The notes under the pieces: model-generated
Seen by the model: only the letters and a program-made list of their open reading frames with translations
Database searches by the model: none
What the model was told of the DNA's origin: nothing
Assembly: GCA_036874045.1 (NCBI GenBank)
Contig: JAZBRI010000003.1
Location: 20,437,501 to 20,501,500 of the forward strand
Direction: 5' to 3'
DNA: 64,000 nt
From: Cymodocea nodosa
Lineage: Eukaryota; Streptophyta; Magnoliopsida; Alismatales; Cymodoceaceae
In this document: piece by piece, positions 765 through 62,370 of the stretch
How positions within the stretch are numbered: the stretch's first letter is position 1
How the letters are laid out: the number at the start of each line of letters is the position of its first letter
Program-made: the position numbers and the translations under genes

Positions 765-1757
765 ATGGCATAAGCTTATGCTCAAAGATTTCTGAAACCT
801 GTAATTAGCATATGTGAATTCTGCAATTCTGAAGGACACGACATTTCTGACTGTTTGAAACTGAGACGTTTGCAGATGGTTAGATCCCATGAACAACAAA
901 TGAATTATCCTCAGTATAATAGAGTCGAGTATGAGAATCCTATAGTTTACCCAACTAATGGTTAGTATAGAATGTGTAATATGTTGAGAGACACTGAAGT
1001 TTGAGATAGGTATGACAGACTAGAGCATAGTATAGAGAAAAATCTAGATAAATTGGAATACTTTGTGTGTCAACAATAAGAAGTCAACCAATTAAATTAT
1101 AAGGAATCATATTCAGAACCTAAAAAGGATATAATTTACGAAACTGAAAAAACCATAATGAAAATTGATCAAAAATTGAATGCAATGGGATTAGATGATC
1201 TGGAAAGAAAATTAAAAGCATTAGATGAATATACAATGAAAATACAAGTTATGCAATAGGACAACGAAAATTATAATGTTATAAACCTACATAATTTGCA
1301 TAATATACAGCAAACAGAAAATACTAATGCAAGAGAATTTAAACAATGCACTTTAAAACTAAAAACAATTGAAGATCATAATCACAAAAATGATATACAA
1401 AAACATCATGAGAGTAAAGAAAATCTGGAAGATGTATGTATAACATTAAGATCTAGAACTGATATACCACCAAGAACTCAAAATGAAAATGATATGAAGG
1501 TGGATATGAGTAAAAATCAAAATGATAATGAAAATGTAATAGCTGAAAATCTAGAAATCACTAAAGAACAATCTGAATCTACGAATGAAGCTAAAAATGA
1601 TCAGACAAATCAATTGAAAGAAAAAGAGTCTTTGAAATCAAAATCTTTAGCACCCTATCCTGAAAGATTACAACAAACAATTCTTGAAAAACAAGAAAAA
1701 ATCAGAGAAATTTTTGAAAAAGTACAAGTTAACATTCCTTTGTTAGATCTATTGTAG
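765..1757 (+). pseudogene. Zinc-knuckle and linker region of the Athila polyprotein (element 1)
   Basis: The first coding region after the primer site. It has a CCHC knuckle (CEFCNSEGHDISDC, 813-854), then a charged, coiled-coil-like linker, then CITLRSRTDIPPRTQNEN (about 1430-1490), which matches the ITLRSGK stretch that in Athila polyproteins stands between gag and protease. In ordinary Athila elements the globular gag domain comes before the knuckle; here only about 150 bases separate primer site and knuckle, with no room for it. The gag domain is found at 10147-11490 instead. Elements 3 and 4 have the same arrangement. The likely role is nucleic-acid binding. Fossil, broken. Confidence 0.8.
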
Positions 1758-2570
1758 AAAATGCCTCCTTGTGCTAAATTTCTAAAGGATTGGTGTACTA
1801 AGAAAAGAGAGCGAAAAGTTCTTAGAAAGGTCTTTTTAGTTGAGCAAAGTAGTTCCCTATTTCTGCCACAAATTCCTAAAAAGTTATCTGATATTGGAAT
1901 CTCTATTATATCATGCACCATAGGAAATACCATTCTAGAAATAACCTTAATAGACTTAGGTGCAGGTATAAATGTTATGCCAAGTGATATATTTGCATCT
2001 TTAGGATTAGAAGGCTTAACTCCTACTAGTACGGTTATTCAATTAGCTGATAGAAGTATAAGATAACCTAGAGGAAAAATAGAGGATGTCTTAATTAAAA
2101 TTAAAAATTTTATATATCCTATTGATATTGTAATTCTGGATTCCCAACAAATTAAGCATAAAAATAGTGATACATCTTTAATTTTGGGAAGGCCATTTTT
2201 AGCAACATCAAGGGCTGTTATAAATTGTAAAACTAGAGTATTGAAATTAGCATATGGTAATGCAGATACTCAATTAAATATTTTCAAACCAGAAAGGTTT
2301 GAGGAGTTAGAAATGTCCTTACATATCATAGACTTTTTAGAGGATGAAGGAGATATGTTAGATGATGTGATTCAAGAAGAATTAAAAAGGCAAATCAATT
2401 CTAAAATTTTAGAAGAAAGTGAAAGCATAAATATAGAAGAAGATCGGGAAGAAATTAATTTAGAAAATGATGATGTTCAATTAGGAGCTCTAACCTCTGA
2501 TGGGCAGCATTTAGAATTAAAACCTTTACCTCCTGAATTAACCTATATATTTCTAGAAGATAAATGAACC
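1758..2570 (+). pseudogene. Aspartic protease region of element 1
   Basis: Retropepsin-type protease that would cleave the polyprotein. The upstream block MPPCAKFLKDWCTKK matches the pre-protease block of Athila. The active site reads DLGAGINVMP (DLGA codons 1953-1964), followed by LADRSIR and the flap-distal LILGRPFLATSRA (about 2178-2215), both typical of Athila protease. An acidic tail (2310-2560) leads to the RT. Fossil, broken. Confidence 0.88.
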
Positions 2571-4640
2571 TGTCCAATCATTATTGCTTTAGATTTAAAA
2601 GAGGATCAAATAGCTAAATTAAAAGATGTAGTAAAAAGTTATAAAAAAGCAATAGGATGGACTATGATTGATATAAAAGGGTTAAGTTCAACTTTATGTT
2701 GTCACCACATATATTTAGAAGAGAATGCTAAACCTGTTAGAATTCCTGAGAGGAGATTAAATCCAAACCTTAAAGAAGTAGTCAGGAAGGAAATAGTTAA
2801 ATGGTTAGATAATGATATAATTTATCCGATTTCTGATAGCTCGTGGGTTAGTCCAATCCATGTAGTTCCTAAGAAATCAGGATTAACAGTTAGAGCCTAT
2901 TTGTGCACCTAGAATTTGAATTCCGTAGAATTTGAATTTTAACGGAATTTGAATTCTATAGAATTTAATGGAAAGAATTTAAAATCTAGGTGTTTGTGCA
3001 CGTTCAAGAATTTAACAGAAATTGAAATTTAAGTGTTTGTGCACATGACATAATTGAAGGAAATTGAATAGAATTGATTTTTAATAAAGTTAAGTAATGA
3101 ATTAAAGTAATTAGTGAAAATGTAATTAATCAAGAAATGAATTACTTACATTAATAAATGAACATATTATTAAATTAAATGTTTATATATTATTTATCAA
3201 TTAATTAAGTATATCATTATATAAAATAAATCAAAAATTACAAAAATTCATAACTTTTTAGTTATAATACATGTTTAAAACAACAAAAGAATAATTATAA
3301 ATTCTATATTCCTCGTAATGTAATAATAAATAACTTTTATAAAAATATAATTATTATGAAGTGAATAAATGAAAGTAAATAATAAATAATTATTGAAATA
3401 CTTTGATTATAAAAAAATATAATTCTGAACATTTTATTAGCCATAAATGACTTTTAAGACTTCATTTGTGTTAACCACAGAAAGTTAGGAAAATTATATG
3501 GTTTTTGAAAATTTGATATTATATATTAAATAATATAATATAATAAATAAAATAATAATAATAATTGAATTAAATAATATTTATGATTTTAATATTATAA
3601 AATTAAATAATATTAATAATAATAAAATAATTAATATTTTTATTTTTAATAAACAAATATTAAAATAATTAATTAAATAAAAAATATTAACAATATATAC
3701 TTCAACAAAGGAGGGTGAGCGTTGAGCGATCTTTTGGAAAATGAATTCCCAACCTTTACACATGATTGGAATTCAAATTCCTTGGGAATTTGAATTCCAA
3801 AATGCACAAACACCTCATGACTCGGAATCTTATGGAAAAAATTTTCAATTCCGTCAGATTCCGAGTGCACAAACCCCCCCTTATTAGGAATGAAAGTCAA
3901 GACTTGATACCTACTAGAATTCAATCAGGCTGGAGAGTATGTATAGACTATAGAAAGCTGAATGCTGTGACTAGGAAAGATCATTTTCCTTTACCTTTTA
4001 TAGATCAAATGCTAAAAAGATTAGCAGGGCAAGAATATTTTTATTTCTTAGACGGGTATTCAGGATATAATCAAATTCTAGTAGCATTAGAGGATCAAGA
4101 GAAAACAACTTTCACCTATCCTAATGGAACTTAAGCTTTTAAGAGAATGCCATTCCGATTATGCAATGCGCCAACTACCTTTCAAAGGTGCATGCAAGGC
4201 ATATTTACTGGAATGACTAAAGATTTCTTAGAAATATTTATGGATGATTTTACTGTATATGGCAACTTATATGAAGTTTGTTTAAGCAATTTAGACCAAA
4301 TATTAAAACGCTGTGTGGAAAAAAAATCCAGTTTTAAATTGGGAAAAATGTCACTTCATGGTTAAACAAGGAATAGTCTTAGAGCATGTTGTTTCTAAGA
4401 AAGGGTTGGAAGTAGATAAAGCTAAAATAGAAGTAATTTCTAATCTACCAGAACCTAAATCAGTAAAAGATATTAGATCATTTCTAGGACATGCTGGTTT
4501 TTATAAAAGATTTATTAAAGACTTTAGCAAGATAGCTAGACCTTTAACTAATCTATTAAAAGATGTTCTATTTAACTTTGATAAAAATTACAAGGAAGCA
4601 TTTTTCAGACTTAAGACTAACTTAATTTTAACTCCTATAA
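2571..4640 (+). pseudogene. Reverse transcriptase region of element 1, split by a MITE
   Basis: Ty3/Gypsy-type RT. In order: HHIYLEENAKPVRIPERRLN and WVSPIHVVPKKSG before the MITE; after it GWRVCIDYRKLNAVT, FPLPFIDQML, FLDGYSGYNQI, the catalytic FMDDF (4237-4248, the YxDD motif), and the thumb/connection words [38 protein letters not shown] 988-bp DNA element (2893-3880) interrupts it; elements 3, 4 and 5 give the empty site. Fossil, broken. Confidence 0.92.
2893..3880. mobile_element. MITE-like nonautonomous DNA transposon, PIF/Harbinger-like
   Basis: A 988-bp insertion in the RT. The three other RT copies (near 32680, 50118 and 57858) give the empty site CAGTTATTAGG; here it reads CAGTTA, insert, TTATTAGG, so the target duplication is TTA (2890-2892 and 3881-3883). 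TTA or TAA duplications are the mark of PIF/Harbinger. The ends are imperfect inverted repeats: GAGCCTATTTGTGCAC on the left against GGGGGGGTTTGTGCAC on the complement of the right end. The word TTTGTGCAC repeats inward, at about 2900, 2993 and 3036 in one orientation and at about 3803 and 3865 inverted, so the ends look nested. The middle is very AT-rich. No transposase ORF, so it would need a source element elsewhere. Confidence 0.8.
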
Positions 4641-5205
4641 TTCAAGCACCTGATTGGAACCATCCATTTGAATTAATGTGCGATACTTCTGATTTTGCTG
4701 TGGGAGCAGTGTTAGGACAGAAGATAGAAAAATCTCCTAGAGTGATTCATTATGCAAGCAAAACCTTAAATGATGCTCAAGTTAATTACACAACTACTGA
4801 AAAAGAATTATTAGCTGTTATGTTTGCTTTAGAAAAGTTTAGATCATATCTAATTGGAGCTAAAGTAATGGTATACACGGATCATTCAGCTCTAAAACAT
4901 CTAATAAAGAAAAAAGAAACTAAACCTAGATTGATCCGATGGATATTATTATTGCAAGAATTTGATCTAGAAATTAAAGATAAAAAAGGTTGTGAGAATG
5001 TAGTAGCAGATCATTTATCAAGATTACAAATAGAAAAATCAAATATTGAAATTAAGGATAATTTTCCTGATGAACAATTAATGACCATCAATACAATGCC
5101 TTGGTATGTAGACATAGTTAATTACTTAGTTACTAGTCTAACACCTAAGGATTGGAGTAGACAGGATAAGAAATTGTTTTTCTCAAGAGTAAAATATTAC
5201 TATTG
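4641..5205 (+). pseudogene. RNase H region of element 1
   Basis: RNase H of Ty3/Gypsy type, which removes the RNA strand during reverse transcription. Seen: [19 protein letters not shown] with the first catalytic Asp, [36 protein letters not shown] with the catalytic Glu, [11 protein letters not shown] with an Asp, and VVADHLSRL near the end, as usual for Gypsy pol. Followed by the tether to integrase. Fossil. Confidence 0.9.
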
Positions 5206-6402
5206 AGAAGACCCATACTTATTTAAGAAATGTCCTGATTTGGTTTTAAAGAGGTGTGTTCTCGAAACTGAACATCCTAGCATATTGTCTTTCTGTCATG
5301 ACCAAGCTTGTAGAGGGCATTTTGGTTCAGGGAAAACTACTGCAAAAATTCTGCAATGTGGGTTTTATTGGCCAACACTATTCAAAGATGCTCATAAATA
5401 TTGCTTAAGTTGTTTAAGATGTCAACAAATAGGAAGAATATCAAAGAGGAATATGATGACTCTTAATCCTATTGTTGAGGTTGAAATCTTTGATGTGTGA
5501 GGAATAGATTTTATGGGTCCATTTCCTATGTCTAATCAATTTAATTACATATTGTTGGGGGTGGATTATGTATCTAAATGGATAGAAGCTATTCCTACAA
5601 AAACTAATGATAACAAAGTGGTAATACAATTTATAAGAACAAATATATTTGCTAGATTTGGAATACCTAAAGTTATTATCAGTGATAGAGGAACTCATTT
5701 CTGTAATAGAAGTTTTGAAGCCTTAATGAAGAAATATGGAGTAAACCATAAAATTGCAACATCATATCATCCGCAAACAAGTGGACAAGTAGAAAGTGCA
5801 AACAAACAAATTAAATTAATCTTAGAAAAAGTAGTAAATCCTACTAGAACAGATTGGGCTAATAGATTGATAGATGTACTTTGGGCTTATAGAACTACTT
5901 ATAAAACGAGCTTAGATATGTCACCTTTTAGGCTAGTATATGGAAAAAGTTGTCATTTACCTGCTGAAATAGAACATAAAACTTATTGGGCATTAAAAAC
6001 TCTGAACACTAATTTAAATTAAGCTGTTGAAAATAGAAAAATGCAATTAATTGAATTAGAAGAATTTAGAAATGAAGCTTATTCGAAGATTGTAAGAGAA
6101 AAAGAAAAAATTAAATTTTTGCATGATAGAAAAATTATTCCTAAAAGCTTTGAAATAGGACAAGAAGTATATCTTTATATGGATAGACTCCATAATCATC
6201 TAGGAAAATTAAAATCTAGATGGGCAGGACCTTACATAGTTCGAAATATTTATCCGTATGGAGTTATTGAAATTGAAAATCCTAAAAATCAGAATATATT
6301 TAAAGTAAATGGATAAAGACTTAAACCTATTCTGAAAACACCAAAAAGCTCCTTTGAAATTATGGAAGAAGTTAGAGTAGAGGACTACTCGAGCTTTACT
6401 TA
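5206..6402 (+). pseudogene. Integrase region of element 1
   Basis: DDE-type retroviral-like integrase. The N-terminal HHCC zinc domain is visible, with the His pair at 5297 and 5318 (CHDQACRGHFG) and the Cys pair in CLSCLRCQQIGR (about 5405-5435). The catalytic core has Asp at 5507 (GIDFMGPFP), Asp at 5684 (ISDRGTHF) and Glu at 5792 ([10 protein letters not shown]), giving a D-x(35)-E spacing. The C-terminal part has KSRWAGPYIV, the GPY/F-type module of Gypsy integrases. No chromodomain is seen, as expected for Athila. Fossil, broken. Confidence 0.92.
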
Positions 6403-6952
6403 GTAAGAAATTAGTTTTTATGTTTATATATATATAAAAAAAAACATTAAAAATATATATAAAACATAAAAATCATTACGGTTCAACCGACTAGATCCAT
6501 CGGTATGACCGAAACATAAAAATATATGTATATTAATTTTTAGAAAAAATGTTGGTTTTACCGAAACATAGTATTGGTTCAACCGAAAGAAAATATATAT
6601 ATATATTTAGGTCTGACCGAAACATAATATCGGTTAAACCGGTAAAAAAATAGAAAAACTATTCTTTGTAATATTTTTATTATTATATTTGCTTGTACGG
6701 GGAGTCCGTTGAGTTGCGCTTAACTCAATGAGCTTACTCCATTGAGTCTTGAGTTAGTCAACGAGCTTATTCCGTTGAGTTAACTGTAACTCAACGGAGT
6801 ACTGTAGCTAAGACCGCGGATAAAATAGTAATAGTTGGTTCGGGAAATGACCCGATTACTCGCATAAACTTAGGGCTTATTTAAACTAAAACCTAGGGTT
6901 TTGGGGGCATTATCCGGCAAATCATTTAGAATCTAGAATAGTAGAAATCAGA
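6403..6952. other. Noncoding spacer between integrase and the extra ORF (element 1)
   Basis: No gene seen. It holds AT dinucleotide runs (6424-6440, 6597-6606), a cluster of short palindromic words built on GGTTCAACCG and GGTATGACCGAA (6480-6650), then a hairpin cluster (6700-6800) of the CCGTTGAGTTA type. The same order is found at 35210-35849 in element 3, so it is conserved between subfamilies. Confidence 0.75.
6771..6798 (+). repeat. Perfect 12-bp hairpin before the extra ORF
   Basis: TCCGTTGAGTTA, loop ACTG, TAACTCAACGGA. The best stem of its kind in the window, about 160 bases before the next coding region. Confidence 0.85.
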
Positions 6953-9212
6953 GTGATTCTATGCTGTTGTGTAACTCCATGATGAGGAAGATGAAGCCTG
7001 AATTCTGGGAAGAGGTAGTGGACACTGCACAGTTTCTGAAGGAATCTGAAGAATGGCACACACGGTAGAAGATCAAAAATACAACAAGAGAGAAAAAGCT
7101 ACAAAAGGTAGAATTAGAACTCTTTAACTTGAGAAAAATTTTGGTTGAGTTAGAAATACAAATACCACAGATAATGAAGACACGAATTAGAGTGGCAACT
7201 GAAATTGCAATAAGTAAAGAAAGAAAGATACGACCAAACAATGAAGTAGCCCTAGAATTAATCCAATGTAAGTCCCGGCTCTGGTTCAAAAGTTGAATCT
7301 GTAGACGAGCTAAATGGGTGATCTGGGCGCAAGAAAGGAAAGAAAATGAAGAAGAGGCAACTAAAGGACAAGAGGAGCCGACTGTTGAAAGACCTGTTCC
7401 TGAGGAGCAACAGCCTGGACCTTCAAATCTACTTCCTAAACCATTAGAAAGGGTGGTAGTTTTGGGGCCTTCAAACGAAGAATAATTAAGAGAATTTGAA
7501 GAACTTGTTCAAGTTGGGAAAAACCAAGGAGAATCAGAAGATTTGGTAGTGGCTAAAGCACACCTAGTGTTTGATGCACTTTATAAAAAGAGGGCTGCAG
7601 AAAAGTTGAAAGCCCAATATAAAATCAAAGTGGAACAACATCAAGAAGCTACTGCCAAACCTACTGCAAAAGGAGATGAAGCTAGTCCTTCGAGACCAGT
7701 AGTTATAAAAAATGTTAAACAGGAAGAGCTAGTACCTGTGGCTCGAAGGCCTGCAAAGCCTACTTTTGTTGATTTAATTTCAGAAGATGAAGATGAAGAA
7801 CAAGCACAACTAATCAGAAAAAAGAAAGGAAAAGAAAAAGTGCCTGAATATGAAGAAATTAAATCTGAAGTACCAATTTTTACAAGGCCTGTGGAGAAAA
7901 TTTTTATTAACCTACTATCCGATTTTGAGGAGGAGTAGGAGTAGCAGTAGGAGCAAAGAAAAGAAGAAAATCAGGCTGAAATTAGTCTACAGCCTGTACA
8001 AGAAGAAACAAAAATTAGGGCAGAAACTGAATTGCTTGTGACTCCATCCCAATCTGTTACAGAATCAGAAAGAACAGTAACATAACAGATTGGTAGTCAA
8101 GAGGAAAAAGAAAGAGCAGAAAATGAAGAGACTGAAAGAAGCCATTTGGATAAAAATAATTTTATAGATTCTACTGAAGAATAAGAAACTCTTCAGCAAT
8201 TTATGGAGAGAATTCAAGACAGAGTGGAGAGTTCTGCCGGCTCACCACCACAAACAGAAACAGAAATTCAGGAATCTGTAGAAAATATTCAAATGCAGCC
8301 TATAGAAGAGGAAGAGCAAGAGCAAGAGCAAACCCCTCTAGAGCAACAAAGTCACTTTCCTGACCCGACTAAAACAACAATTTTAAATGAAGTACAGTTT
8401 TGTAGTTAGGAAGCTTATACCAAATACCAAGAAATAAGGGGTTACGACATTATTTACAGTAGACCAGTAAATTGGGATGGAATGCAAGAAATCAAAGATT
8501 TATTTGAATTCCAAGGTCTACTGTAATTCATTTCTCAAGAAAGAGGGCATGCAGTATATGAGAATTTAGTACCCTGTTTTTATGCAAATTTAAGAGGAGT
8601 AAGAGGATTAATTTCCAACGTGGAGGAAGTTGATGTACAGATAACACCAGAGCTTCTCCACAACAATTTTGGTTTAAAGAATGAAGGAATAACAATTTTG
8701 GAAGATACAACTGCAGTTGAATGGACTGAACAGCAAATTAAGGATTGTTTAGCTATCAATCCTGGTGTGCCATTATTAAACAGATTGAAGCATTTAAATG
8801 GTAAAGCACACCTGGTAGCTAACATATTGATTAAGAATGTCTATTAACGACAGGGTCATGACATAGAATTAAGTCAATTTGTCAAATGGGCCACATATGC
8901 AGTTGTAAATAAGATCCAAATAAATTGGTCTACAGTTTTTATCTCCAAGTTGAAAATAGTGAAGAAAAAATTATTTTATGGAGGTTTGATTCCACTGCTG
9001 ATGGTGGACTGTATTGATTTCATGAAATGAACATAAAAAAGGATTAGATCTAGAACCATTTCAGTGAAAGAATACAGAAATTTTGTAGTTGTAGAACTAG
9101 CTGTACCTTATGGAGGAATTACAGGAGTAGTAGAGAGGATTAACCAATTAGAGCTTTAATTAGAAAAACTCCAGAAGGAAGTAGATGAACTTAGGCATAG
9201 AGATTATATTGT
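6953..9212 (+). pseudogene. Extra ORF of element 1, putative plant transposon protein type
   Basis: The third large coding region of the family. The N-terminal part is charged and Glu/Lys/Gln-rich, with VVAKAHLVFDALYKKRAAEK (from 7546) and acidic low-complexity runs. The C-terminal globular part (about 8410-9130) has FEFQGLL, LLHNNFGLKNEGI (about 8655-8693), AHLVANILIKN, NKIQINW and KKLFYGG; it ends in a Leu-heptad coiled coil (LEKLQKEVDELR). This resembles what Pfam calls putative plant transposon protein (I recall PF20167), found near Athila and Copia pol genes. Function is unknown; it sits where env-like ORFs lie in other Athila elements, but I see no signal peptide or clear membrane span. 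A related ORF is in the Copia fragment at 23142-25429. Fossil, broken, about six interruptions. Confidence 0.7.
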
Positions 9213-10146
9213 ATTGTTCGTCTACTTGTGTAAAATTGTATGATGTACTTGTAATGTAATTGATTCATATTAATGAATGTAATTTTTTCAGATGCAATTT
9301 TCATACGTGTTTTGGATGTGAAATGAATGGAATTTATTGAATATTATGTAATTTGTGGAACTTTAAGAATGAATATGTAACAGATTTATAATTTGCTGAA
9401 TGACAGGATAACTGCTTAAAATTTTTTGCATGTTGTAAGGTAAAATGTAAATTTTGCATAACATAAAATGACCTACAAGTTAAATCTTTATATAAGGTTC
9501 AGATTTAAATGAATTTTAATCAAAATGATGCATTAATGACATAGATTTAACTTTATTTCAGTTAGCAGAATGGAAAAAAAAAAAAAAAAATAGAGAGGAA
9601 CTTACGAGAGTAAAACTTAGAAGTTGCTAAGTTTTAACTCAACGAAGTAAGTCTGTTGAGTTAAATGTAACGCCACGAGGTCAGTAATATAATATAAGAT
9701 CACTCCGTTGAGTTATCTGTAACTCAACGAAGTTAGTCCGTGGAATTAGCAACAGTAACCAACTGTATTCTGTTGAGTTATTTGTAACTCAACGAGGTTA
9801 GTTCGTGGATTAAGTAGAACGGTTATTCTTTTAACCACGAATAAAACTTCGTCGGTTTAGCGGATACCAAAATTTGAAATTAGTAGTGGTACACGTACCC
9901 ATAAAAATAGGAACCACGATGCAAGTTGCAAGCCACGTTCTTACAATGAGATTTATTCACTTTATGGATGTGTAGTATATATATAAAACAGAATGTTATT
10001 TACGAGTTACCAGTACTTTTAAAAGAAAGGAGAATGCGTTGGAGGAACTGGAAGGAGAAGCAGCTGATTCAACTTCATCCGACAACAAATATTTACTAAA
10101 TGGAAAGCTTTAGACTGGTATGTAATTAATCTTTTGCTATTTATTT
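9213..10146. other. Noncoding spacer before the displaced gag (element 1)
   Basis: No gene seen. It has an AT-rich stretch, an A-run (9574-9590) and a dense cluster of hairpin words (about 9630-9830) on the CCGTTGAGTTA / TAACTCAACGA theme. Element 3 has the matching cluster at 42690-42930. It may be a leader or internal promoter for the gag-like ORF; that is inference. Confidence 0.7.
9706..9729 (+). repeat. Perfect 10-bp hairpin before gag
   Basis: CGTTGAGTTA, loop TCTG, TAACTCAACG. The same stem as at 304-327 with another loop. Confidence 0.85.
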
Positions 10147-11490
10147 ATGAGCACATGGACTCATTCTCTAAGTACTAAACAATTAGTAAGAACACCTACC
10201 TAGGAATTTTCATTGCAGAGGAGTACTAAAAGATTTTCTGAACTGAACTTTAATGAAATTCTTTGAGGTGTATCTAACCTTTCTTTAAAAGAGAACGTAG
10301 AGATGACTACTCTAGTAGAAAAACCATTAGGAGAGATTCTGTATCCTGAATTAGTTGATGAACCTTCATGTATTCAATTGCCAAATTTTGAGGGAGATAG
10401 GTTTGAACTGAAATCTAATTATATTAGTCAATTGCCACATTTTCATGGATTAGAAAGAAAAGATGCCTATTATTTCCTTAGAGAATTTAACGAAGTTTGT
10501 CAAATGATGAAAATGCCGAACATGAGTATAGATGCTATTAAACTTAGATATATTCCTTTTTCTTTAAAAGACACAGCTAAGAGATGGTTATATACTCTAT
10601 CGCTTGATTTAATTGCTACATGGACTGAATTTTGCTCTATTTTTTTGGAAAAATATTATCCAACACATCAAACAATTAAAAAGAAGAAAGAAATATTAAT
10701 GTGTAGCCAAAAACAAGGTGAATCATTCTGGAAATATTTTGAAAGATTTAAAGATTTATTGACTCAATGTCCACATTATGCAATGAGTAAAGCACAATTA
10801 ATAGGTATAATTTATGAAGGCATAGATGTTTCAACAAAATCTTTATTAGAATCTACTTGTCAAAATGGATTTTTAAAGTTATGTAGTGAAGTAGCATGGG
10901 CATATTTAGAAAACTTTGCAAAAAGAACTACACAGTGGGAAAATTCTGCTGAAGCTATTGCAGATAAAAAAATATTGCCAAGAGGAATGCATGAAATAGA
11001 CTCAAACACTATGCTTGAGGTGAAATTAAATGAATTAACAAAGAAAATAGAAGAGTTATCATTAAATCAAAGGCTAGCAGAAAAGAATGCAAACATAAAT
11101 GATTTAGATATTATTTATGCTAGAAACCAGAGAGATAACTTGGGAAATTCTTATCATCCTAATTGGAGAAATCACCCGAATTTATCTTGGAGAAACAACA
11201 ATTTTCAGGGAGGAGAAAATATAAATGAGAAGAACATAAGTTATGAAGTATTAATTGAACAAGGATCTAGAATAGAGAAATTAGAAAAGATAATCCAACA
11301 ATTAAACAATCGTCTAGATTTTGTATTTGGAAATGTTGCAATTCAAAATCAAAATAGAAATATACCACTTAGATAGAAGGAACCAATGGAAGTTAGACCT
11401 ACTAGAGGATTGCCAATACAAGCTATACCTAATCCTGTCAATAGAACTGTTCATGAAATTGATACCTCTTCTAGGAGGGTAGTTGAATGA
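10147..11490 (+). pseudogene. Athila-type gag lying downstream of integrase (element 1)
   Basis: Capsid-type gag of the plant retrotransposon gag family (PF03732 type). The stretch from 10303 is open for 357 codons: IQLPNFEGDRFELKSNYISQ, FHGLERKDAYYFLREFNEVC, LRYIPFSLKDTAKRWLYTL, TWTEFCSIFLEKYYPTHQT, QGESFWKYFERFKDLLTQCP, all standard Athila gag words in the standard order; then GMHEIDSNTMLEVKLNELTK and the late gag block YHPNWRNHPNLSWRNNNF. In usual Athila gag a CCHC knuckle stands between these last two blocks; it is absent here and instead lies at the 5' end of the element (813-854). Similarity to element 3 begins at the ATG near 10147. It would form the particle shell. The odd point is position: it follows pol and the extra ORF. 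Element 3 has the same order (43281-44628). Confidence 0.88.
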
Positions 11491-11679
11491 AGCAGCATAT
11501 CTGAAGCAATTATCTATATGTATATATTTTTTTTATTTTTAGTTAATAGTATCGTAGAGTTAATTTTTAACTCAACGAACTTAGTCCATTGAGTTATGCC
11601 TTAACTCCACGAGGGTGTGTAGTAGTATGTTAATTTTTGTCTCTACTTAATTTTTGTTTGTGTTTTACATAATCGACAA
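11491..11679. other. Spacer between gag and F-box ORF with hairpin words
   Basis: Contains imperfect copies of the TTGAGTTA / TAACTCAACGA pair (11555-11612). The matching spacer in element 3 (44629-44850) has the same pair at about 44713-44780. Confidence 0.65.
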
Positions 11680-12819
11680 ATGGAATTGATGTAATTACCG
11701 TGGGATGCACTAAGGGAAGTACTAAGTAACTTGTCAGCTAAAGATCTCTGCAGACTGTGTTGTATATCAAAGGAAATTAAAAACTGTATTGAAGAAAAAT
11801 ATTTTCAGGGACTACAAGCTACAAAAATGACTAAGATTAGAGATGGATTCATATGGAGGTCATTTAATTGTAGTTCAATTAACCATGAATATCTGGCTAT
11901 GGAAGAAACTACCAGAATTCCACCCAATGCATTAGAAGGAATAAATCATATTATGGGGATAGATGAAGGATTAATCATATACAAGACGAGACCAAGGTAT
12001 GCAATTTTATTATCACCTGATATTTTGATAAGAAATCCTATAATAGGAGAAGAATGGAATATAGGAAGACCTAATAAATTTGAAGCACCAATTGTAAATT
12101 GTGGGTCAACTTTAATATTTTTTGATAAAAATTCTGCAATTCCTGAAAAATTATATTATTGGAGACCTATAGGAAATTGGGGTGAAGATTTACGCTTAAG
12201 TGTGTATAATTTTCTGAACAGATCTTGGAATGAAAATATTATGATATATCTAGGACAGAAATCATTAATTAACCAAACACATGTCATACTTGATGGATAT
12301 ATATATCTAGTCATAGAGATATCAATAGCATATGGATCTGATTTATACATAGTGAGCATAGACAGTTATGATGAATATATAGAAATTTTACCTGTACCGA
12401 GTGAAATAGCTAAACCACCATCTGTAGAATTTAATAAAATTCAAATAGGAATGTGGTATAATGAAGAAGATGATCCTACTTTATGTTTGATAAGAAGGTG
12501 GGATGAACTGATGAAATTTCAAAAATGGATTATGGAAGACATAAATGAATGGAAGTGGCAAGAGGAGTATATTGAAATAGATGTAGAAATAGAAACTGCT
12601 ACATTACCTTGGAACCAAAAAGGATCCCTTTCTGCATTGTATATCATTAATGGTAATACACTTGTATTTGGAATTTATAATATATTACATGTTTACAAAT
12701 TAAGAAGGAACAAGAAATGCATTAAAACAGAATTAATAGCAAGAAGAACTATACCTAAAAAGTTTGCTTGGATTGATACATTTATTCCATTTGTTTCTAC
12801 TTTTCAATCTTGTTCTTAA
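11680..12819 (+). CDS. F-box protein gene carried inside the retrotransposon (element 1)
   Basis: F-box proteins are substrate receptors of SCF ubiquitin ligases; the F-box binds SKP1. The N-terminus lines up with the element 3 copy, whose first residues include LPLDALREVLSNLSTK, a clear F-box, followed here by LCRLCCISKEIKNCIEEKYF. Open over 362 codons from 11731. The rest looks like an F-box-associated domain: DGLIIY-like DEGLIIYKTRPRYAIL, IRNPIIGEEWNIGRPN (the NPxTREW theme), repeated beta-rich stretches such as YIYLVIEISIAYGSDLYIVS. It lies between gag and the 3' purine tract, in the same sense as the element. A second copy is in element 3 and an inverted piece at 62027-62370. Best read as a captured host gene now part of the family. 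I saw no intron. Its substrate cannot be told. Alternative: a host F-box gene trapped between insertions, made unlikely by the two independent copies in the same place. Confidence 0.78.
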
Positions 12820-14510
12820 GCTATGATTTTGTGTGTTTAATGTTGTGTGTATTTTGCATTTATTTTTAGAAAAAAAAAGGAATTTTAAAGTTTTCATGTT
12901 CATTTTATAATAAAAAAATAAATAAAACAAAATATCAATCCAGTTTGTTGGTATCTGTTCTGGGAAACCAACTAGCTTGCTTGTGAGCCACCAAAGGCAT
13001 AGGAGCCTAGGTTCCACACAAGACACTGATTTATTAATATCTGTTAAATGTTATTTTGTTTTATATTTTGCTTTTATCTATGAATGAAAAGTTTTTCAGA
13101 ATCAAAAATCGAAATATGTAGAAGGAGATACAAATGAAACAAGGTATGCAACTAATTACTCATCCTAAATTTTAAATCAAACAAAACTGTATTCATGCCT
13201 ACTACAATTACTATACTTATTGTCAAATCTTTTACATTGAGGACAATGCAAAATGTAGGTATGGGGGGGAGGTAATTAAAGTAACAGCCATGTAAGTTTG
13301 TTAATTAAAGAAATTAAAATAGTATTGTAAAGTTTTGAGGAAATTGAAAATTTTTATGAACTTGCCGTAACTATCCGATAAATAAGACTGTAAAATTTTT
13401 ATAAAAACTACTTGAATGTTATATTTAGAAGGCTATATAAGATGCTATTGAATTTGCTAGTTATGCAAATCTAGATATAGTATCTTATGTTTTTTCTGAA
13501 TTTCATGAGTTTAACAGTTTCACGATTTTAAAATGAAATCATAATGCTTAATGAAAAAATCAGTAAATTATTTGAAGTCCTGAAAGAGCTGAGATGTGAA
13601 TTCTAGATTAAATGAAACACATATGATTAAAAATACATTTAATTTGACTGATTGAACTTGTAGAATGATTTATGTGTAGATCTTATTAAACTATAGAAAA
13701 AGTATGAGCTTATTGTTATGGATTCATATTTTCAATAAATGATACAAGCAGAACTATATGAGATTGGTGTTTTACTACATCTGTATTAATGAAATACATA
13801 CAAGTAAATGATAGTATGTGATTAATGTTTTGTTTTATGTTTGTATATAAATAAAAAAATAAAAAAAAATGGAAAAATTTTGAGAGTTTATTGACTTGTT
13901 TGATCACGAGCCTTTTGTACTTAAGCAAATAGGTATGTAAGGATTATTGACTGAAAGCTCGTTACATGGGTACATTAGAAAACTCTTGTATGATTCAAGC
14001 TTGTCAAATTAACTTTTAAAGTACAAAAAATATATATATATATATACTGTTCTGAAAAGATACAAGTGTTTTGTGAAATACAGATATCTTATGAATTGAG
14101 TATATTTTCTGTTATCTAGAATTGCTGTAATATGAATCTAGAATTGACTTTTGAAGTTGTTTAATGGAGATACAATTTTTTATTCTACTTGTCTTAATCA
14201 AATTGAATTGGATTGTACTTTGATTCGTATGTTGTTGAAATTTCTTCTAGAAATCTTATTGGAAAATTCAAGATAGCAGATGATGAAAAGAAGAACAAAC
14301 GATAATATAATTAACACTTATGTGATGATGATATACTTTGTATGTAATTTGCATATATTCTAAGTATATTTGCAGGTTGATTACTGAAACATATAGAATA
14401 TATTTTTATGCTAAACAGAAGAAAAACAAAGGGGAAGAATTATTTCTAGCACTTTTAGAAAGACCAATTAATTAGATCTTAGTTTGCTAAGGGACTAGCA
14501 AAATTTAGGT
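12820..14510. other. Long 3' noncoding region of element 1
   Basis: No supportable gene. It has an internal purine tract ATGGGGGGAGG (13261-13271), a TATA-repeat run (about 14028-14045) and a conserved stretch (about 13590-14400) including GTTTGATCACGAGCC, which has a close relative inside the Sirevirus-like fragment (21840-22650). A further copy of the earlier part (about 13395-13675) is at 62400-62700. Confidence 0.75.
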
Positions 14511-14520
14511 ATGGGGGAAG
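14511..14520 (+). other. 3' polypurine tract of element 1
   Basis: ATGGGGGAAG directly abuts the 3' LTR start TGTTTAG, the usual position for the plus-strand primer. Confidence 0.8.
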
Positions 14521-15036
14521 TGTTTAGAATGAAAAAGTGCATATTATTAACGGTTAAATGATGGTTAATTGCATAATATTTAGCTTATCATATGAGAATT
14601 AAGCCATTATGTTATAATTGCACTGCTATATACTTTAATTGAAGAATCTACTTAATTTGGGGGAATTAATGTTAATTTAGTACATTTCTAAATTGTCGGT
14701 AAGTTGCAGGCTATGAAATTCTTAAGTATCCAAGTTTTCTGATATTTCGAACAGTTATGTTTAACAGATTGAACATGTATCGGATATTTATGTTTAAATT
14801 GCCGAACAGTTATGTTTTGAAAGAATATTTTATTATTTTTTGAAGTACACGTGTCGAAACCATAATGAATGACTTAAGTGGATTTTCGGTGAGTTATCTG
14901 TAACTATCCGAAATGCATCTAAGCATCGGATAGTTAGTTTTGTAACTCTCCGAAATGTTATTTTATGATTAAACTACTGCTAACACGTGTTGAGATCTGA
15001 TAGATTTACTTAAGTTATATATCGGTGAATTATTTG

Positions 15037-15072
15037 TAACTATCCGAAATGCATCTAAGCATCGGATAGTTA
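15037..15072 (+). repeat. Perfect 11-bp hairpin in U3 of LTR A
   Basis: TAACTATCCGA, 14-nt loop, TCGGATAGTTA. A second copy with the same loop lies at 14901-14936. The word recurs in Copia LTRs of this window. Confidence 0.85.
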
Positions 15073-15416
15073 AATTTATAAGTATCAGAAATGCACCTGA
15101 GCATCGGATAATTAAATTTATGCACATGTTGAATTTAAATGCTTTAGTATATCATGTGAGATGCACATGTTTAACTCGTTAAGTTAGCATAACTGTACGT
15201 GTTAAGTTACATGAATACACACTAAGGCAACACGTTATGTTAGCAGATTATTTCTTTATATTTTCTAATATGCCACTGTAGCGGTTGCAAGAACAGACAG
15301 TTGGAAGAGAAAAACCACATTTGCAAATATCGCGTAGGGAAAGAAATCATCGCCGTTGATACAAATGAAGGAAATTCAACCAACCATTCAAGCAGAAGTA
15401 GTTACTACTGAAGAAA

Positions 15417-15424
15417 TATAAAAG
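15417..15424 (+). promoter_or_regulatory. Candidate TATA box of LTR A
   Basis: TATAAAAG inside GAAATATAAAAG. The word is kept at the same place in all A and B LTRs (for example 19786, 27702, 38527, 46671, 62956). U3 would then be about 0.9 kb and R-U5 about 1.1 kb. Confidence 0.5.
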
Positions 15425-16580
15425 AAAAGAAGAAAAAAGAAGAATGGTGTGATTGATGGGCGGACAGTGTGTGTAGAGGAGGATGAGCATCACAATTCTC
15501 TGAAGTTCCACACCAACCATCATCATCACCACCATAATCACCAACCATCGAAGGTCTGTGAGGATACTTGCCTGATGTCGGGTCGATTCTGAGCCAAACA
15601 CAGTGCTTGACAACCACTGTGAGGAGTGATCACGTTGCGGGAAGGGAAGTCATTTTCACCAAGCGTCGACTCATATTTCAGGAGATTGTAAAGCTTTTAG
15701 CCTTGGCTTCGAGTTGATGCCTATATGCTGAAGAGGAGATCATCTTGGAATTCTGGACTCACGATTCTATAGGGAGAGGAGACAGAATTGTAAGTGGTTT
15801 AATTTTCAATGGTGTAATCATATTGCAAGTAGTGTCAGAAGTATTTACTGTCAAGTGAGATTACTTTACATTTCACCTTTCGCCCATTTCCATGTTCATA
15901 TTAAAACAAAAATACCAAAAACAATTTATCTATGTTTGTATGTTGTATTTGAGTGTTGTATTGTTTGTGTTGTATCGTGATTAATGTTATCTTTGTCAAT
16001 GTTGTGATTGTTTTATGTTTATTTTAGTTTTACAGTTTACTGAAATTGGTTTGTTCAAAAGACTTAAAGATTTTAATGGTTACTGTTTGAATTATCTAAA
16101 TGTTAGTATTGCTTAATGATAAATCCAATGTTAACTAACATTAAAGAGTTTAATTGATGTTATTTACAATCTGTGGAATCGCCTAATGGTTGGCCGAATT
16201 CCTTTATAAATAGTAGTATTAAAAAGAAAAGACAGGCTCGTGGAGTTAACTTAAGTCCACGAGGTTAGTCCGTTGAGTTAGCCATAACTCAACGAACTTA
16301 GTCCGTTGAGCTTATTGAATATATAAATTTGATTGTTAATAAACGAACAGTTCTCAAGTTCTTTAGCAATTCCCTGTAGGATCGACCTATACTTGCACAC
16401 TGATACAATAGACATTGTGCACTTGCAATTAAAGTACAAATTGGAATTAATATCTAAATTGTATTAAAGGTTGTTTGTTTACTTCTAAAAGAAAGAATAG
16501 GCATAAAGATAAATTAACTAAGTAAAAACAGAAGTAACAAATCCAAGTTTTTCTAGTGTAGTGTTGGGAAAACGCAAACA

Positions 16581-18710: not shown

Positions 18711-19985
18711 TGTTTAGAATGAAAAAGTGCATAATATTAATGGTTAAATAATGGTTAATTGCATAATATTTAGTTTATCATATGAGAATTAAGCTATTAT
18801 GCTATAATTACACTATTATATGCTTTAATAGAAGAATCTGCATAATTTAAGGGATTTAGTGTTAATTAAGTACATTTCTACACTATCGGTGAGTTACAGG
18901 CTTTGAAATTTTTAAGTATCTGAATTGTCTATTATTTTGGAGAGTTACATTTCATATACTGAACAGTTATGTTTTAAATGCTTAAAGAATATTTTATTAT
19001 CTCCTAAAGTACACGTGTTGTAACCTTAATACATGACTCAAGTGGATTTTCGGTAAGTTAGATGCTAACTATCCAAATTATGTCTAATCATCGAATGTTA
19101 GGTTTGCAAGTGTTTGAAATATCTTTTTATCATAAAACTTACTGAGTACACGTGTCGTGATCTGAAAACTTGATTTAAGTGTGGTTTTATAGTATTAAGC
19201 ATGATCTATTTTATTTGCACATATTTATATCATGTATAGGTGCACAATAACAACTTGTTAAGTTACTATTCTTTTTATTGAAAGATCACGTGTCAACTCG
19301 TTAAGTTACAAGTTTAAAGGTGTAAAAAGATCACGTGAGAACTCGTTGAGTTAGTGAGTAAAAACTGTAAGTTGTATATCTGAATTTGTTAAGTTAGAAT
19401 TATGCACGTGTTGAATTTAAATGTTTTATTATGTCACGTGAACTACACATGTTTAACTTATTAAGTTAGCATAACTATACGTGTTGAGTTACTTGAATAT
19501 ACACTAAGGTAACGTGTTGTGTTAGTGTTATAAGCTTATTTCTTTATTGCACGTGTTTTATAGTTAAGTCAACGAAGTAAGTCTGTTGAGTTACACTAAC
19601 TCCACAGACTATTTATTTTATAACATGACATTGTAGCAGTTGCAGAAATAGAAAATACGAAGGAAAACCACGATTGCACGTATCACGTAGGAATTAACTC
19701 GTGGAATAAAGAAGAAATCACCATCGTAGATACGAATGAAGGAAATCCAACTGATCATTTAAGTAGAAGTAGTTATTATTGAAAGAAATATAAAAGAAGA
19801 GAAAAAAAATGTGTGTGAAGGGGGTGGAGGATCGCGCTAACTACAGGAAGCGTTAGAAGTTCCCTGAAGCTCCACAACATCACCAAAATCACCAACCATC
19901 GGAGGTCTATGAGGATACTTTCTGGATGTCGGGTCGATTCCGAGTCAAACACGGTGACTAACAACCATTGTGAGGAGTGATCGCA
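18711..19985 (+). repeat. Athila-like LTR B, 5' part
   Basis: Starts TGTTTAGAATG like LTR A but is clearly diverged from it. It ends abruptly against the Copia fragment. Its last 295 bases (19691-19985) are homologous to 27607-27905 on the other side of that fragment, so the two flanks are different LTR copies rather than one LTR simply split. Confidence 0.82.
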
Positions 19986-20890
19986 TCATTTGTGATTTGT
20001 CAAGTTGTACTTCTAACATGACTATAAATGTTTCTAAAAATCTTGTTTCTTGTTCTGGAAATTCAGTTTCTAATGTTTCTAAAATTTCAGACAATTGTCG
20101 TAAATTGAAAATTCAGAAACCTGAGCATGTAATTCAATACACTAGTATTAGACCAATTACTCATTCTACATGTAATAAAACTAAAAATTCTTGTGTAGAA
20201 AAAGATTTTGTATGTATAGAAAATGTTAATACAAGTACAAAATCTTGGTATGAACTTACTGAAATGTATAAGCATGACCAAAATAAATTAACATTTGATA
20301 AAAATCTGTTTGGTCTTGATTATACTACATCTGAAAAGAAAAAGAATGATTGTAAAAGTAATAATGCTATATGTGAGTATCAAGCTAATGATAAATCAAT
20401 AGTACTTACAACTAATAAGAATATAAATGATAATGTTAAACTATTTTTAAACAAAAAGAAGAAATATGCGTTTAATGAACTTGGTCCTCAACAACATTGG
20501 GTACCAAGAAAAAGTTTTTCTTAATTTGTGTTGCAGGAGGAAACAACATTAAAATGGATCTTGGACAGTGGAGCGTCAAGTCACATGACCGGACAGAAAA
20601 GTCTATTACAAAATTTTACAAATACCATGAAAGGAAGTGTAACATTTGGAAACAAAAGCAAAGATAAAATCATAGGTATGGGCAATGTTCAAATAACTCC
20701 TACTTGTGTTATTTCGAATGTACTATATGTAGAAAACCTAGGATTTAATTTGCTGAGTGTCATAAAAGATAAAGGTATATTTTTAAATCAAGAAAAATAT
20801 GCAGATGAAATGCTTAAGAAATTTAATTTTAATGATACAAGGATTTGCGGAACTCCTATGAGTACTACTTTAAAGTTAGATATTGATGAC
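19986..20890 (+). pseudogene. Copia gag end and aspartic protease
   Basis: The first part is rich in Asn, Lys and Ser and ends in GPQQHWVPRKSFS, the usual text before Copia protease. The protease active site reads LKWILDSGASSHMTG (DSGAS from 20564), followed by NVLYVENLGFNLLSV, a standard Copia late-protease word. It would cleave the Copia polyprotein. Fossil. Confidence 0.82.
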
Positions 20891-23141: not shown

Positions 23142-25429
23142 TTGTTGCTGTTACAACCTACGACGATGGTCTCCAAGTTCTACAAAGGTCGTGGCAGAGG
23201 AAAAGGCAAAAGTAGAGGAGATGCAAAAGGAAAAGAAATAGAGAATGATGAAGTTCCACGTACTTGGTTCAAGAAAATATTTCGAGTGGACAAAAGGTTA
23301 GCAAAAATTTATAGTGAATATTTCTTTCCTGAAGGTATAGTAAATGAAGTTAGACTAGAACTCCAAAATACTGATGCTAGTATTACATACATGGGTATTC
23401 GTAGTAAATTTGATAGAGAATACAGAATGAAATTTGCTGAGATTGCATTTTTGGAATAGTATGCAAAATATTTGGAAAAATGTTTAGGTTCATCAAATAG
23501 AACTCCTCAAACTCCTATAAACGGTACAAGACTACATGCATTTGAGGAAGAGCATGAATCAGCTATCCCTACTCCTTTATATTCAAAACAAGTAGAATCA
23601 GATATTGCTGTAGACAAAACAAAAGTTTACAGTCTTTGAAAGGCTGTTGCAATAGAAAGTGCCTTAGAAGAATTAATGTAGAAAACTTTTATGGAGCAAT
23701 TTGAAAAGAAAACAGCAATACTTGAAAAGGAGAAAAAGAAATGTTATAGAAGAAGGAAAGTCAGAAAAATTATGTCTAAGGAAATAAAGTCTATTGAAAA
23801 AGGAAAATCAGACGAAAATTTATTTCCAAAGGACAATGTATGTCTAGACATTGTACCTTATTGTGCATCTGATAAACTCATCAGTTCCGAACACACTGAA
23901 ACTGATGAAGATAATGAGACTTTATTTTCCCTTGCTAGAAAGCTTGAGAAGAAATACAAGTCAAATATGTGCTCAAGTTTTTCTATTAGTACAAGTCCTG
24001 ATGATGCAGAAATTAACAAATTAAAGCATCAAGCACCTGACATTGAACAAGTTATTGCAGATATAATTGACAATGTTGAAGTAGTAACTAGTTCACAGGC
24101 TGAATTGTTTGGAGTAGCAGATATTGAAAATGTTAAGACTCTAGAAGAGTTAAAAGTTAACCAGCCTTTTATAGAATCTATAGAAGCAGAGTTTGAGAAT
24201 TCACAACATGAATCAATGGAATTATCTGTTGAACAAAATGAACAATTACAGACAAATACACCAGCTGTAGAATTTATGGAAAAATTAAACTCTGAACATT
24301 CTATAAAGACTGAACAGATGAATGTTGAGCATATTGACAATGTTCCTAACACTGTTGAAGCTGAAGAATCAAGCTTACTTGAGCAGCTTCAAGATAATAT
24401 TTTGGAAGAGCAACAACATGACATTCATTTTGAAGAAGAGGTTCCTGAAGATAAATTAAACTCTGAATCACGGCTTCAGGTATCACCTTCTTTGTATACA
24501 ATATTAAAAATTCAAGGTAATGTAATTCATTTCAGATTTGAAGAAGCATTGCGGAAATACAATAATCTGATTACATGTCAGATTCTACATGCTCATCCAA
24601 TAAAATTCAGAAATTTGATGGAAATAAGAGATCGTTTGAGTTTCAAGGCCTCATTAAATTCTTGCTAGTAGGAACGAAATGGAAGCAATACACAGAGCTT
24701 ATTGCAGCTTTTTATAGCAATCTGGTCAAGAATGGAAATTTTCTGAAAACTCAAATAAATGAACAGGAGTTTATATTCTCTCTTGAGTTAATTTTTGAAG
24801 TTTTAGGATTAAAGAATGAAGGTGTTGTTGTTACCAACAGATTTGACATGATAATACAACTGGAATGGAACATTCAGTCTTTATCAAAAATTCCAGATGT
24901 ATATTCTGAAATGAGATTAATGGAAAATCTGAATGTAGAGGCAAGGTTTATTGCAAATATATTGCATGCAAATTTATTTCAGAGAGTTGGACATAATTTG
25001 GAAGTCAGCAGAAGCTATTTATATGCAACTTATGGCCTGCTGAATAGAATTCAAATAAATTGGTTTGATGTTTTTATGTCTCAACTACAACATATGAGTT
25101 CAAAGTTATTTTATAGTGATGCTGTATGTAGAATCCTTGCAAGCTAATTGACTTTATCCGACTGGCCCTCTGAAACTAAAGGCATGAGAGCATTTAGTGT
25201 CAAAGATTTGCAAAAATTCCAAGCTATGCATAAACCTCAATGACAACAACAACAACCTGATACAGACCATATACAACAACAACAACAAAGTTATTCAGTT
25301 CAAGTAGAATAGCAAACTCAGCTACCTCCTGACTTAGATGTAGTGTTTAACGACATCAGAAATGATATTAGGCATCTAGGAGATAAAATATGTAATGCTA
25401 TAAGTGATATACTTAGGAGGGGTCGATAA
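23142..25429 (+). pseudogene. Extra ORF of the Copia element, related to the Athila extra ORF
   Basis: The N-terminus is basic (MVSKFYKGRGRGKGKSRG), followed by a region with WFKKIFRVDKRLAKIYSEYF, then a long Glu-rich acidic stretch (about 23830-24480). The C-terminal domain (about 24590-25200) has FEFQGLIKFL, IFEVLGLKNEGV (GLKNEG from 24806), RFIANILHANLF, NRIQINWFDVFMSQL and SKLFYSDA. These line up in order with FEFQGLL, GLKNEGI, HLVANILIKN, KIQINW and KKLFYGG of the Gypsy ORF at 6953-9212. A Gln-rich tail follows. Function unknown; some Sireviruses have an env-like ORF here, but no membrane span is evident. Fossil, several interruptions. Confidence 0.75.
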
Positions 25430-40400: not shown

Positions 40401-41608
40401 TACAATTCTGCCTCCTCTCCCTATAGAATCGCGAGTCTAGAATTGCAAGATGATCTCCTCTTCTGCATACTAACATCAACGCGAAACCAAGGCTAGAAGT
40501 TTTATGATCTCTTGAGATATGAGTCAGTGCTTAGTGAAAATGGCTTCCCTTCCCGCGATGTGATCACTCCTCACAGTGGTTGTCAAGCACCGTGTTTGGC
40601 TCGGAATCGACCTGACATCAGGAAAGTATCCTCACAAACCTCCGATGGTTGGTGATTATGGTAATGTTGGTGATGTTGGTGAATTATTGGTGATGGTGTG
40701 GATGCTTCAATGAACTTTCGACGCTACCTGTAGTTAGCATGGTCCTCCACCTTTACACACACTACTACACACCTCCAACCACACCTTCTTCGTTTTTTCT
40801 CTTCTTTTATATTTCTTCAGTAGTAACTGCTTCTACTTTAAATGATCAGTTGGATTTCCTTCATTCAAATCAATGATGGTGATTTCTTCTTCCTTCCACG
40901 AGTGAATTCCTGTGTGATACATGCAATCATGGCCTTCCTTTGAATGTCTTATTTCTGTAACCGCTACAGTGGCATATTAAAAAATAAATGGTCTGTGGAG
41001 TTACAGATAACTCAACGGACTTACTTCGTTGATTTAACTATAAAACACGTGCAATAAAGAAATAAGCTGCTAACATAGCGTGTTACCTTAGTGTGTATTC
41101 ATATACTCAACGCATACAGTTATGCTAACTTAACGAGTTAAACAAGTGCATCTCACGTGATATACTAAAGCATTTAAATTCAACACGTGCATAATTCTAA
41201 CTTAACAAGTTCAAATATTTCGGACACTTACGAACCTAACTATCCGATGCCTAGATGCATTTCGAATAGTTAATAGATAACTTACCGAAAATCCACTTAA
41301 GTCATGCATTATGGTTTTAACATGTGTACTTTAGGAAATAATAAAATATTCTTTAAAACATAACTGTCTGGTACATTAAACATAACTCTTTGAAATAACA
41401 GAAAATTCGGATACTTAAGAATTTCACAGCCTGCAATTTACCGACAGTCCAGAAATGTACTAAATTAACATTAATTTCCTGAAATTATGTAGATTCTTTC
41501 ATTAAAGCATATAATAGTACAATTATAACATAATGGCTTAATTCTCATATGATAAGCTAAATATTATGCATTTAACCATTATTATTATGCACTTTTTCGT
41601 TCTAAACA
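37459..41608 (-). mobile_element. Solo LTR B, reverse, inserted in the extra ORF of element 3 and itself interrupted
   Basis: On the minus strand it starts TGTTTAGAACG (41608) and ends CTTGAACA (37459). Flanks are CCCTG and CCTTG, a likely target duplication with one change. Element 1 runs through here without interruption (about 8570-8590). A solo LTR A sits inside (37576-39703). Without it the length is about 2.0 kb. Confidence 0.85.
37576..39703 (+). mobile_element. Solo LTR A with CTTAT target duplication, nested in solo LTR B
   Basis: TGTTTAAAATG to GCAAACA, 2128 bp; CTTAT at 37571-37575 and 39704-39708. Internal layout equals 14521-16580, including TATCCGA hairpins (about 38129-38170), the TATAAAAG word and the U5 hairpin words (39345-39430). 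Confidence 0.93.
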
Positions 41609-62026: not shown

Positions 62027-62370
62027 ACATAAAGTAGGATCGTCATATTCATTATACCATACTCCTAATTGAATTTTATCATATTTTACAAATGGTGGTT
62101 CAACTTAGCTTGAGGTATAGGTAATATTTCTATACATTCATCATAATTGTCTATGCTTACTATATATAAATTAAATCTAAATGTAACTGATATATCTGAA
62201 ACTAGATATATATATCCATCAAGTATCACACATATACTGTTAACTAATTCTTTCTCTCCAAGATATATCATAAAATTTTCCTTCCAAGATCTATTCATAA
62301 AATTATACACACTTAAACGTAGTCCTTCTCCCCAATTTCCAATTGGTCTCCAATAAAACAATTTATCTGT
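62027..62370 (-). pseudogene. Inverted piece of the retrotransposon F-box gene
   Basis: On the minus strand: FYWRPIGNWGEGLRLSVYNF, MNRSWKENFMIYLGEKELVN, ILDGYIYLVSDISVTFRFNL, YIVSIDNYDECIEILPIP. It corresponds to the middle of the element 1 F-box ORF (about 12150-12480). This is a third copy, so the gene has spread with the family. Too short to judge function. Confidence 0.85.

Follow-up and report, generated by a model that had tools for sequence, protein, structure and literature searches.

What does an F-box gene do inside a retrotransposon? Cells normally use such genes to mark proteins for destruction, and in the 64,000-nucleotide stretch of Cymodocea nodosa DNA analysed here (the window) an F-box ORF at 11680-12819 on the forward strand belongs to the regular gene set of an Athila-like LTR element. 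We hold it fairly probable that four features belong together in this Athila-like Ty3/gypsy element, namely an F-box as standing 3' gene, a split gag, splicing that yields capsid or F-box, and a role for the F-box protein in an SCF complex. If this is true, a plant retroelement exploits host ubiquitination by means of a selected gene of its own, and from the target of the F-box protein one could trace a host factor that restricts retroelements.

The original prediction, that the frame begins with an F-box, is confirmed by the PF00646 profile, which matches the ORF at 11695-12816 (E 3.9e-8, 33.3 bits) and the second-subfamily copy at 44851-45327 (E 1e-5, 25.7 bits), exceeding the curated cut-off of 20.5 bits in both subfamilies. 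An F-box-associated domain had also been proposed; no profile for it matches at E ≤ 10, nor does any other second or substrate-binding C-terminal Pfam domain at that threshold. The ORF lies, as described, between the gag capsid ORF and the 3' purine tract, and all three copies expected in the window are present: the first at 11680-12819, a second-subfamily copy at 44851-45588 (forward strand; one stop, cut by a later LTR at about 45590) and an inverted fragment of a third type at 62113-62367 (reverse strand). Protein identity between copies, at 73-75% to the first, agrees with the three-quarters that had been estimated. The 362/374-codon frame is indeed open, but not from its ATG at 11680, since the window copy carries an in-frame stop at codon 5 (11692-11694). 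This site is read through in other copies, and one seven-residue start is common to 24 of 31. Neither a single-sequence protein search nor one with a four-row alignment of the F-box protein gave a match, and a PDB sequence search returned just two weak unrelated matches (E 0.36 and 0.49). For the proposed capture from the host, no parent gene came to light in the protein searches. IMG/VR scans with the F-box, RT and capsid gave no confirmed relative, Rfam and tRNA scans found nothing, and the predicted structure of the F-box protein (pLDDT 31.2) was unusable as a model.

The element around the first copy, element 1, opens with a 5' LTR truncated by the window edge and closes with a 3' LTR ending at 16580, with all its features on the forward strand in the order zinc knuckle-protease-RT-RNase H-integrase, broken third ORF, capsid ORF, F-box, polypurine tract and 3' LTR. 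The 3' part of the 5' LTR (1-635, its start outside the window) differs from 15968-16580 in 3.8% of 613 aligned columns. Seven bases after the LTR end lies a primer-binding site (643-660; a pattern match, with 0 in 100 shuffles), putatively of the tRNA-Asp type. The knuckle-to-integrase region follows at 765-6395 (CCHC at 813), with stops and no capsid domain, and its start is the same in the elements at 29014 and 48038. The RT-RNase H-integrase order is that of Ty3/gypsy elements. A broken third ORF region occupies approximately 6960-9160, and part of it (8494-9009) is 33% identical to 24566-25144, itself an ORF of a different, more distant element with a weak PF20167 match (23.3 bits, below the cut-off of 45). 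At the 3' end, the polypurine tract (14509-14520) adjoins the 3' LTR (TGTTT...AAACA, 14521-16580), which holds a palindrome module at 16272. Two identical polypurine-like tracts, AGGTATGGGGG, stand 1250 bases apart at 13257-13267 and 14507-14517, and the LTR adjoins the second only. Relative to the element at 47.9-52.4 kb, element 1 also has an insertion of about 990 bases in its RT region (2893-3880).

Beyond the window, the host genome (374.6 Mb, 28 contigs) was searched for further copies. All 110 places scored for the F-box, among 6980 loose candidates, match over nearly the whole query, and all 150 places scored for the knuckle region match, among 5497 candidates. As had been predicted, the F-box ORF recurs in other family members, and many copies, from no fewer than two subfamilies, have it within the element. 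For closer comparison 30 F-box copies other than those of the window were fetched from the matches listed by this score-ranked search, a sampling that favours open F-box frames. The ATG of the F-box is kept in all 30. An LTR start lies 3' of the F-box in eight of the ten copies fetched with a long 3' flank.

Read from its domains, gag is divided in this element, with the zinc knuckle joined to pol in the 5' frame and the capsid domain forming a separate gene 3' of pol. The displaced capsid ORF (10303-11376, forward; PF03732, 6.9e-18) has no zinc knuckle, whereas the knuckle-pol frame begins about 100 bases after the primer-binding site, and a zinc knuckle opens the frame after the primer-binding region in all three 5' ends of the window. 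A capsid query finds only 10303-11373 and a frameshifted copy beside the second-subfamily F-box (43436-44505, forward), the next matches in the window having E values of 6.7 and 9.3. A single gag-pol ORF with capsid and knuckle, a feature of the Athila lineage, was not found in element 1. Among capsid relatives, three (P0004, P0006 and P0008) carry a knuckle after the capsid, and in the best (P0001, from Tasmannia lanceolata; 48% identity across 69%) a single protein holds both capsid and protease, with no zinc knuckle seen in it. The amounts of capsid and polymerase are a known problem for elements with one ORF, and a displaced capsid gene would be a way to make the two in different amounts.

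The arrangement recurs outside the window. The capsid gene lies directly 5' of the F-box in 24 of the 30 fetched copies and is absent from L016, L035, L037, L039, L045 and L047. Ten upstream stretches were taken at the distance expected for the 5' end, and two of them (L013 and L017) show an LTR followed by the knuckle, in the element's direction, about 10 kb before the F-box; in L015 an LTR-knuckle pair is inverted. Seven of the ten have neither LTR nor knuckle region, so that a 5' end in register with the F-box is confirmed by two of ten only, and none of the ten gave a capsid match.

How, then, might a gene so far downstream be expressed? In five of the 30 fetched copies, that is, in five of the six without capsid, a 1553-nt GT-AG interval holding the capsid gene (10118-11670, forward) is exactly missing. 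In these processed copies a leader ending in ACTG runs directly into AAT, immediately ahead of the F-box ATG, with the same junction in five of five. The sixth, L047, has another repeat there, which resembles the inverted window sequence at 25.8-27.6 kb and abuts the F-box side at window base 11624. In the 25 other copies the donor reads GTATGT in all 18 that were readable (seven were left unread by the script) and the acceptor ends in AG in 24, while the window copy's own acceptor is non-standard. A search of the genome for the joined junction, with up to three mismatches, found 99 + 108 = 207 places and none with a reversed control, although these places may descend from few splicing events. 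Judging from these genomic copies, the exact loss is best explained by reverse transcription of spliced RNA. Upstream of the interval a leader exon, with a putative start, is placed at 10010-10117, its 3' end being the splice donor. The processed copies L016 and L037 run upstream into ORF3 sequence, which indicates a template RNA longer than one begun at the TATA-like box described below. A putative short GT-AG intron (10118-10218) precedes the capsid ORF, and in the 23 copies keeping the capsid start its donor signal is present in 17 and its acceptor signal in 18. Alternative splicing would most likely give either capsid or an SCF substrate receptor. The original prediction had missed both the capsid gene displaced beside the F-box and its removal, evident from processed copies, as an intron before the F-box.

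Besides the capsid interval, two of the processed copies, L039 and L045, are without pol and the third ORF, and the two sites of this loss are shared between them. We rejected the idea that they are fully spliced copies, the pol and ORF3 junctions being without GT-AG; an intron is therefore claimed for the capsid interval only, and the pol and ORF3 losses look like deletions. The LTRs of L045 differ by 4.5%, a polypurine tract is present, and the 5-base sequence GTGAA stands as a direct repeat at either end; it is this LTR pair, polypurine tract and target-site duplication that indicate that it moved as a unit. In this small derivative the F-box is kept, and capsid, pol and ORF3 were not detected in the fetched sequence, outside which about 1.3 kb of the 3' non-coding part lies. 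The F-box frame is open in L045, and in L039 it stops at once. About 600 bases near the 5' LTR end of L045 match nothing in the window.

Repeated palindromes mark the approaches to the 3' genes. The palindrome GTTGAGTTA-N-TAACTCAAC occurs 30 times in the window, against 0-1 times in 20 shuffles, when up to one mismatch per arm is allowed and with a spacer mostly of 4. As the module GTTGAGTTA-N4-TAACTCAAC, it stands in two forward-strand copies each before ORF3 (6708-6795), before the capsid gene (9707-9793) and before the F-box (11554-11610), and these six are the only internal palindromes of element 1. Elements 2 and 3 repeat those places, and most other occurrences are in LTRs; a few lie elsewhere, at 19585, 26334, 31705 and 62753. 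Among the fetched copies, a palindrome precedes the F-box in 24 of 30 and the capsid in 20 of the 23 with a capsid start. In a looser scan, which itself selects for pairing, two-sided changes kept pairing in 26 cells, broke it in 16 and gave G-T in 2, and one-sided changes broke it in 98 and gave G-T in 16. The palindrome may act as a DNA dyad or as an RNA hairpin. Additionally, a TATA-like box (9976-9988, forward), for which a promoter role is conceivable, precedes the shared leader exon, and the motif is present in 17 of the 23 fetched copies keeping the capsid start. The sequence before it (9701-9990) is more conserved than 9161-9700 (p 3e-6). The TATA-like box and the palindromes before the leader suggest a possible internal promoter.

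The claim that the F-box was under selection while carried holds for two of three pairs of window copies, which fall below neutral expectation, and not for the third, which is not separable from it. Between element 1 and element 3, the truncated element that carries the 44851 copy, F-box dN/dS is 0.35 (243 codons, bootstrap 0.23-0.58). Because AT-rich DNA lowers dN/dS, neutral evolution was simulated with the spectrum of the non-coding neighbours, which gave a mean of 0.80, with none of 1000 runs at or below 0.35. The comparison of element 1 with the 62113 fragment gave 0.37 (18 of 1000 neutral runs), and 44851 against 62113 gave 0.57 (178 of 1000, not significant), with three wrong frames scoring lower than the true frame in this last pair. 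Raw dN/dS below 1 was rejected as evidence at face value, since wrong frames of the main pair gave 0.44-0.66 and neutral values lay near 0.8. Across 31 copies, each compared with element 3, F-box dN/dS ranged from 0.28 to 0.40 (median 0.33). For the neighbouring genes, element 1 against element 3 gave 0.24 and 0.23 in capsid pieces and 0.28 in the third ORF, and the knuckle and pol parts gave 0.17-0.33, except for one very close pair at 0.87.

When elements 1 and 3 are compared, the F-box shows a divergence of 0.161, the capsid 0.110, the spacer 0.274, the stretch 9161-9700 0.327, the non-coding stretch 9701-9990 0.176 and the leader 0.225; F-box DNA is less diverged than the spacer and 9161-9700, the only two regions with which it was compared (p 7e-12). 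Among F-box variants in the 31 copies, N/S is 2.46 for singletons, 2.50 for doubletons and 1.44 for those in three or more copies (singletons against three or more, p 0.038). In-frame stops number none in 12 copies, one in 11 and two in 8. Together, the dN/dS values, the lower divergence and the N/S of commoner variants support purifying selection as the probable reason why the F-box was kept while carried. The same shared-variant test for the capsid, using the 13 of 31 copies without gaps (18 dropped), showed a trend that is not significant (p 0.19). Capsid stops recur at codons 138, 143 and 211 in 4, 7 and 8 of these 13 copies, where other copies read TGG, CAG or CAA, reflecting either recurrent C-to-T/G-to-A change or the spread of capsid-defective copies. 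A capsid frameshift found in six copies was considered as an inherited change and rejected; it falls in a short repeat in the four printed, and the six form no single group on the F-box tree, four being near each other.

From these observations a working model can be proposed. An Athila-like Ty3/gypsy LTR element would have acquired an F-box gene, which became a permanent part of its 3' region. As the processed genomic copies show, the donor at 10117 is joined to the acceptor immediately ahead of the F-box ATG, so that the capsid gene is lost as an intron; the same donor may also be spliced to an acceptor that directly precedes the capsid ORF. The shared leader would then head a capsid or an F-box mRNA, set by the choice of acceptor. 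If it behaves like others of its family, the F-box protein would bind SKP1 and form an SCF ubiquitin ligase, which might remove a host (or element) protein and so favour the element. We give roughly even chances to a broader, retrovirus-like plan in which the capsid was freed from gag-pol to the 3' end, one leader exon serves two acceptors (capsid or SCF substrate receptor), and F-box-keeping satellites spread alongside.

The F-box could instead be a passenger, acquired from the host a single time and multiplied while serving no function, in which case nothing but recent amplification would lie behind its conservation. Captured genes are common in LTR elements of rice and sorghum and, according to the accessible text of one study, those of rice are mostly without purifying selection (PMC3726574); moreover, one or two in-frame stops occur in 19 of 31 copies, and the 44851/62113 pair is inseparable from neutral. 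This explanation is nonetheless unlikely given the dN/dS of 0.35 between the main subfamilies, as low as which none of 1000 neutral runs came, the lower N/S of commoner variants, a start codon present in 30 of 30 fetched copies and the retention of the F-box in derivatives without pol, ORF3 and capsid.

Two further alternatives concern the architecture. Capsid-less elements might be ancestral, the capsid-containing interval having been inserted later without any splicing, and both states are numerous (24 of 30 fetched copies with capsid, against 207 junction places). Yet the interval runs from GTATGT to a pyrimidine-rich AG at exactly the joined bases, an intron-like form that an insertion would take only by chance, and the capsid sits at the same place in the distant second subfamily, making a later insertion quite improbable. 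Element 1 might also be a chimera, made up of two elements by nesting or recombination, which would render the split gag an artefact; this suspicion is raised by the window itself, a nest of related elements, by the left flank of the 5' LTR, which lies outside the window and leaves a target-site duplication uncheckable, and by the seven of ten upstream stretches without an LTR-knuckle start at the expected distance. The junctions of element 1 recur, however, pol-ORF3 in element 2 and ORF3-capsid-F-box in element 3, and LTR-knuckle and capsid-F-box stand about 10 kb apart again in L013/L014 and L017/L018; we regard a chimera as very unlikely.

F-box proteins are also encoded by plant viruses, as in polerovirus P0 and nanovirus Clink, and the element resembles these, by description only, in having an F-box in a viral or mobile genome; an anti-silencing role of the kind originally guessed at would be speculative here. 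The Athila/Calypso/Diaspora lineage shares with element 1 the RT-RNase H-integrase order, long LTRs and a primer-binding site a few bases after the LTR, and in Athila and Calypso, too, a coding region follows pol on its 3' side (PMC1142308). Their consensus elements hold gag, protease, RT and integrase in one ORF (PMC1142308), whereas element 1 has its knuckle separated from the capsid, which lies on the 3' side of pol; the accessible part of that report shows no F-box. A large survey of extra ORFs in plant LTR elements, which found them in 3372 Ty3/gypsy elements, describes forward extra ORFs of more than 250 codons 3' of the polyprotein, as in element 1, and F-box has no occurrence in its main text as accessible (PMC6317226). 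According to the accessible text, elements whose domains came in an unexpected order were treated as probable mispredictions and left out of this survey, so the arrangement of element 1 would have been discarded and could be overlooked elsewhere (PMC6317226). Within the accessible portions of the open-licence literature, no capsid gene 3' of pol was found in plant LTR elements, and no plant LTR element family is described as carrying an F-box among its regular genes. The nearest case is the 'LTR-gene' of Thlaspi arvense, an F-box-family gene linked to an LTR element which, going by its description, differs in being a single host gene, duplicated as its family expanded, and not a gene kept by an element family (PMC8764390). 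BARE, like the proposed capsid mRNA, makes Gag from its own spliced subgenomic RNA, but BARE has one ORF, while element 1 has its capsid in a gene of its own at the 3' end and an F-box protein as the alternative (PMC3735527, as far as accessible). Elsewhere in the window, a reverse-orientation LTR at 39706-41608, directly flanked by a forward LTR on one side and truncated element 3 on the other, marks a nested insertion, and an open frame of 188 codons lies at 19958-20524.
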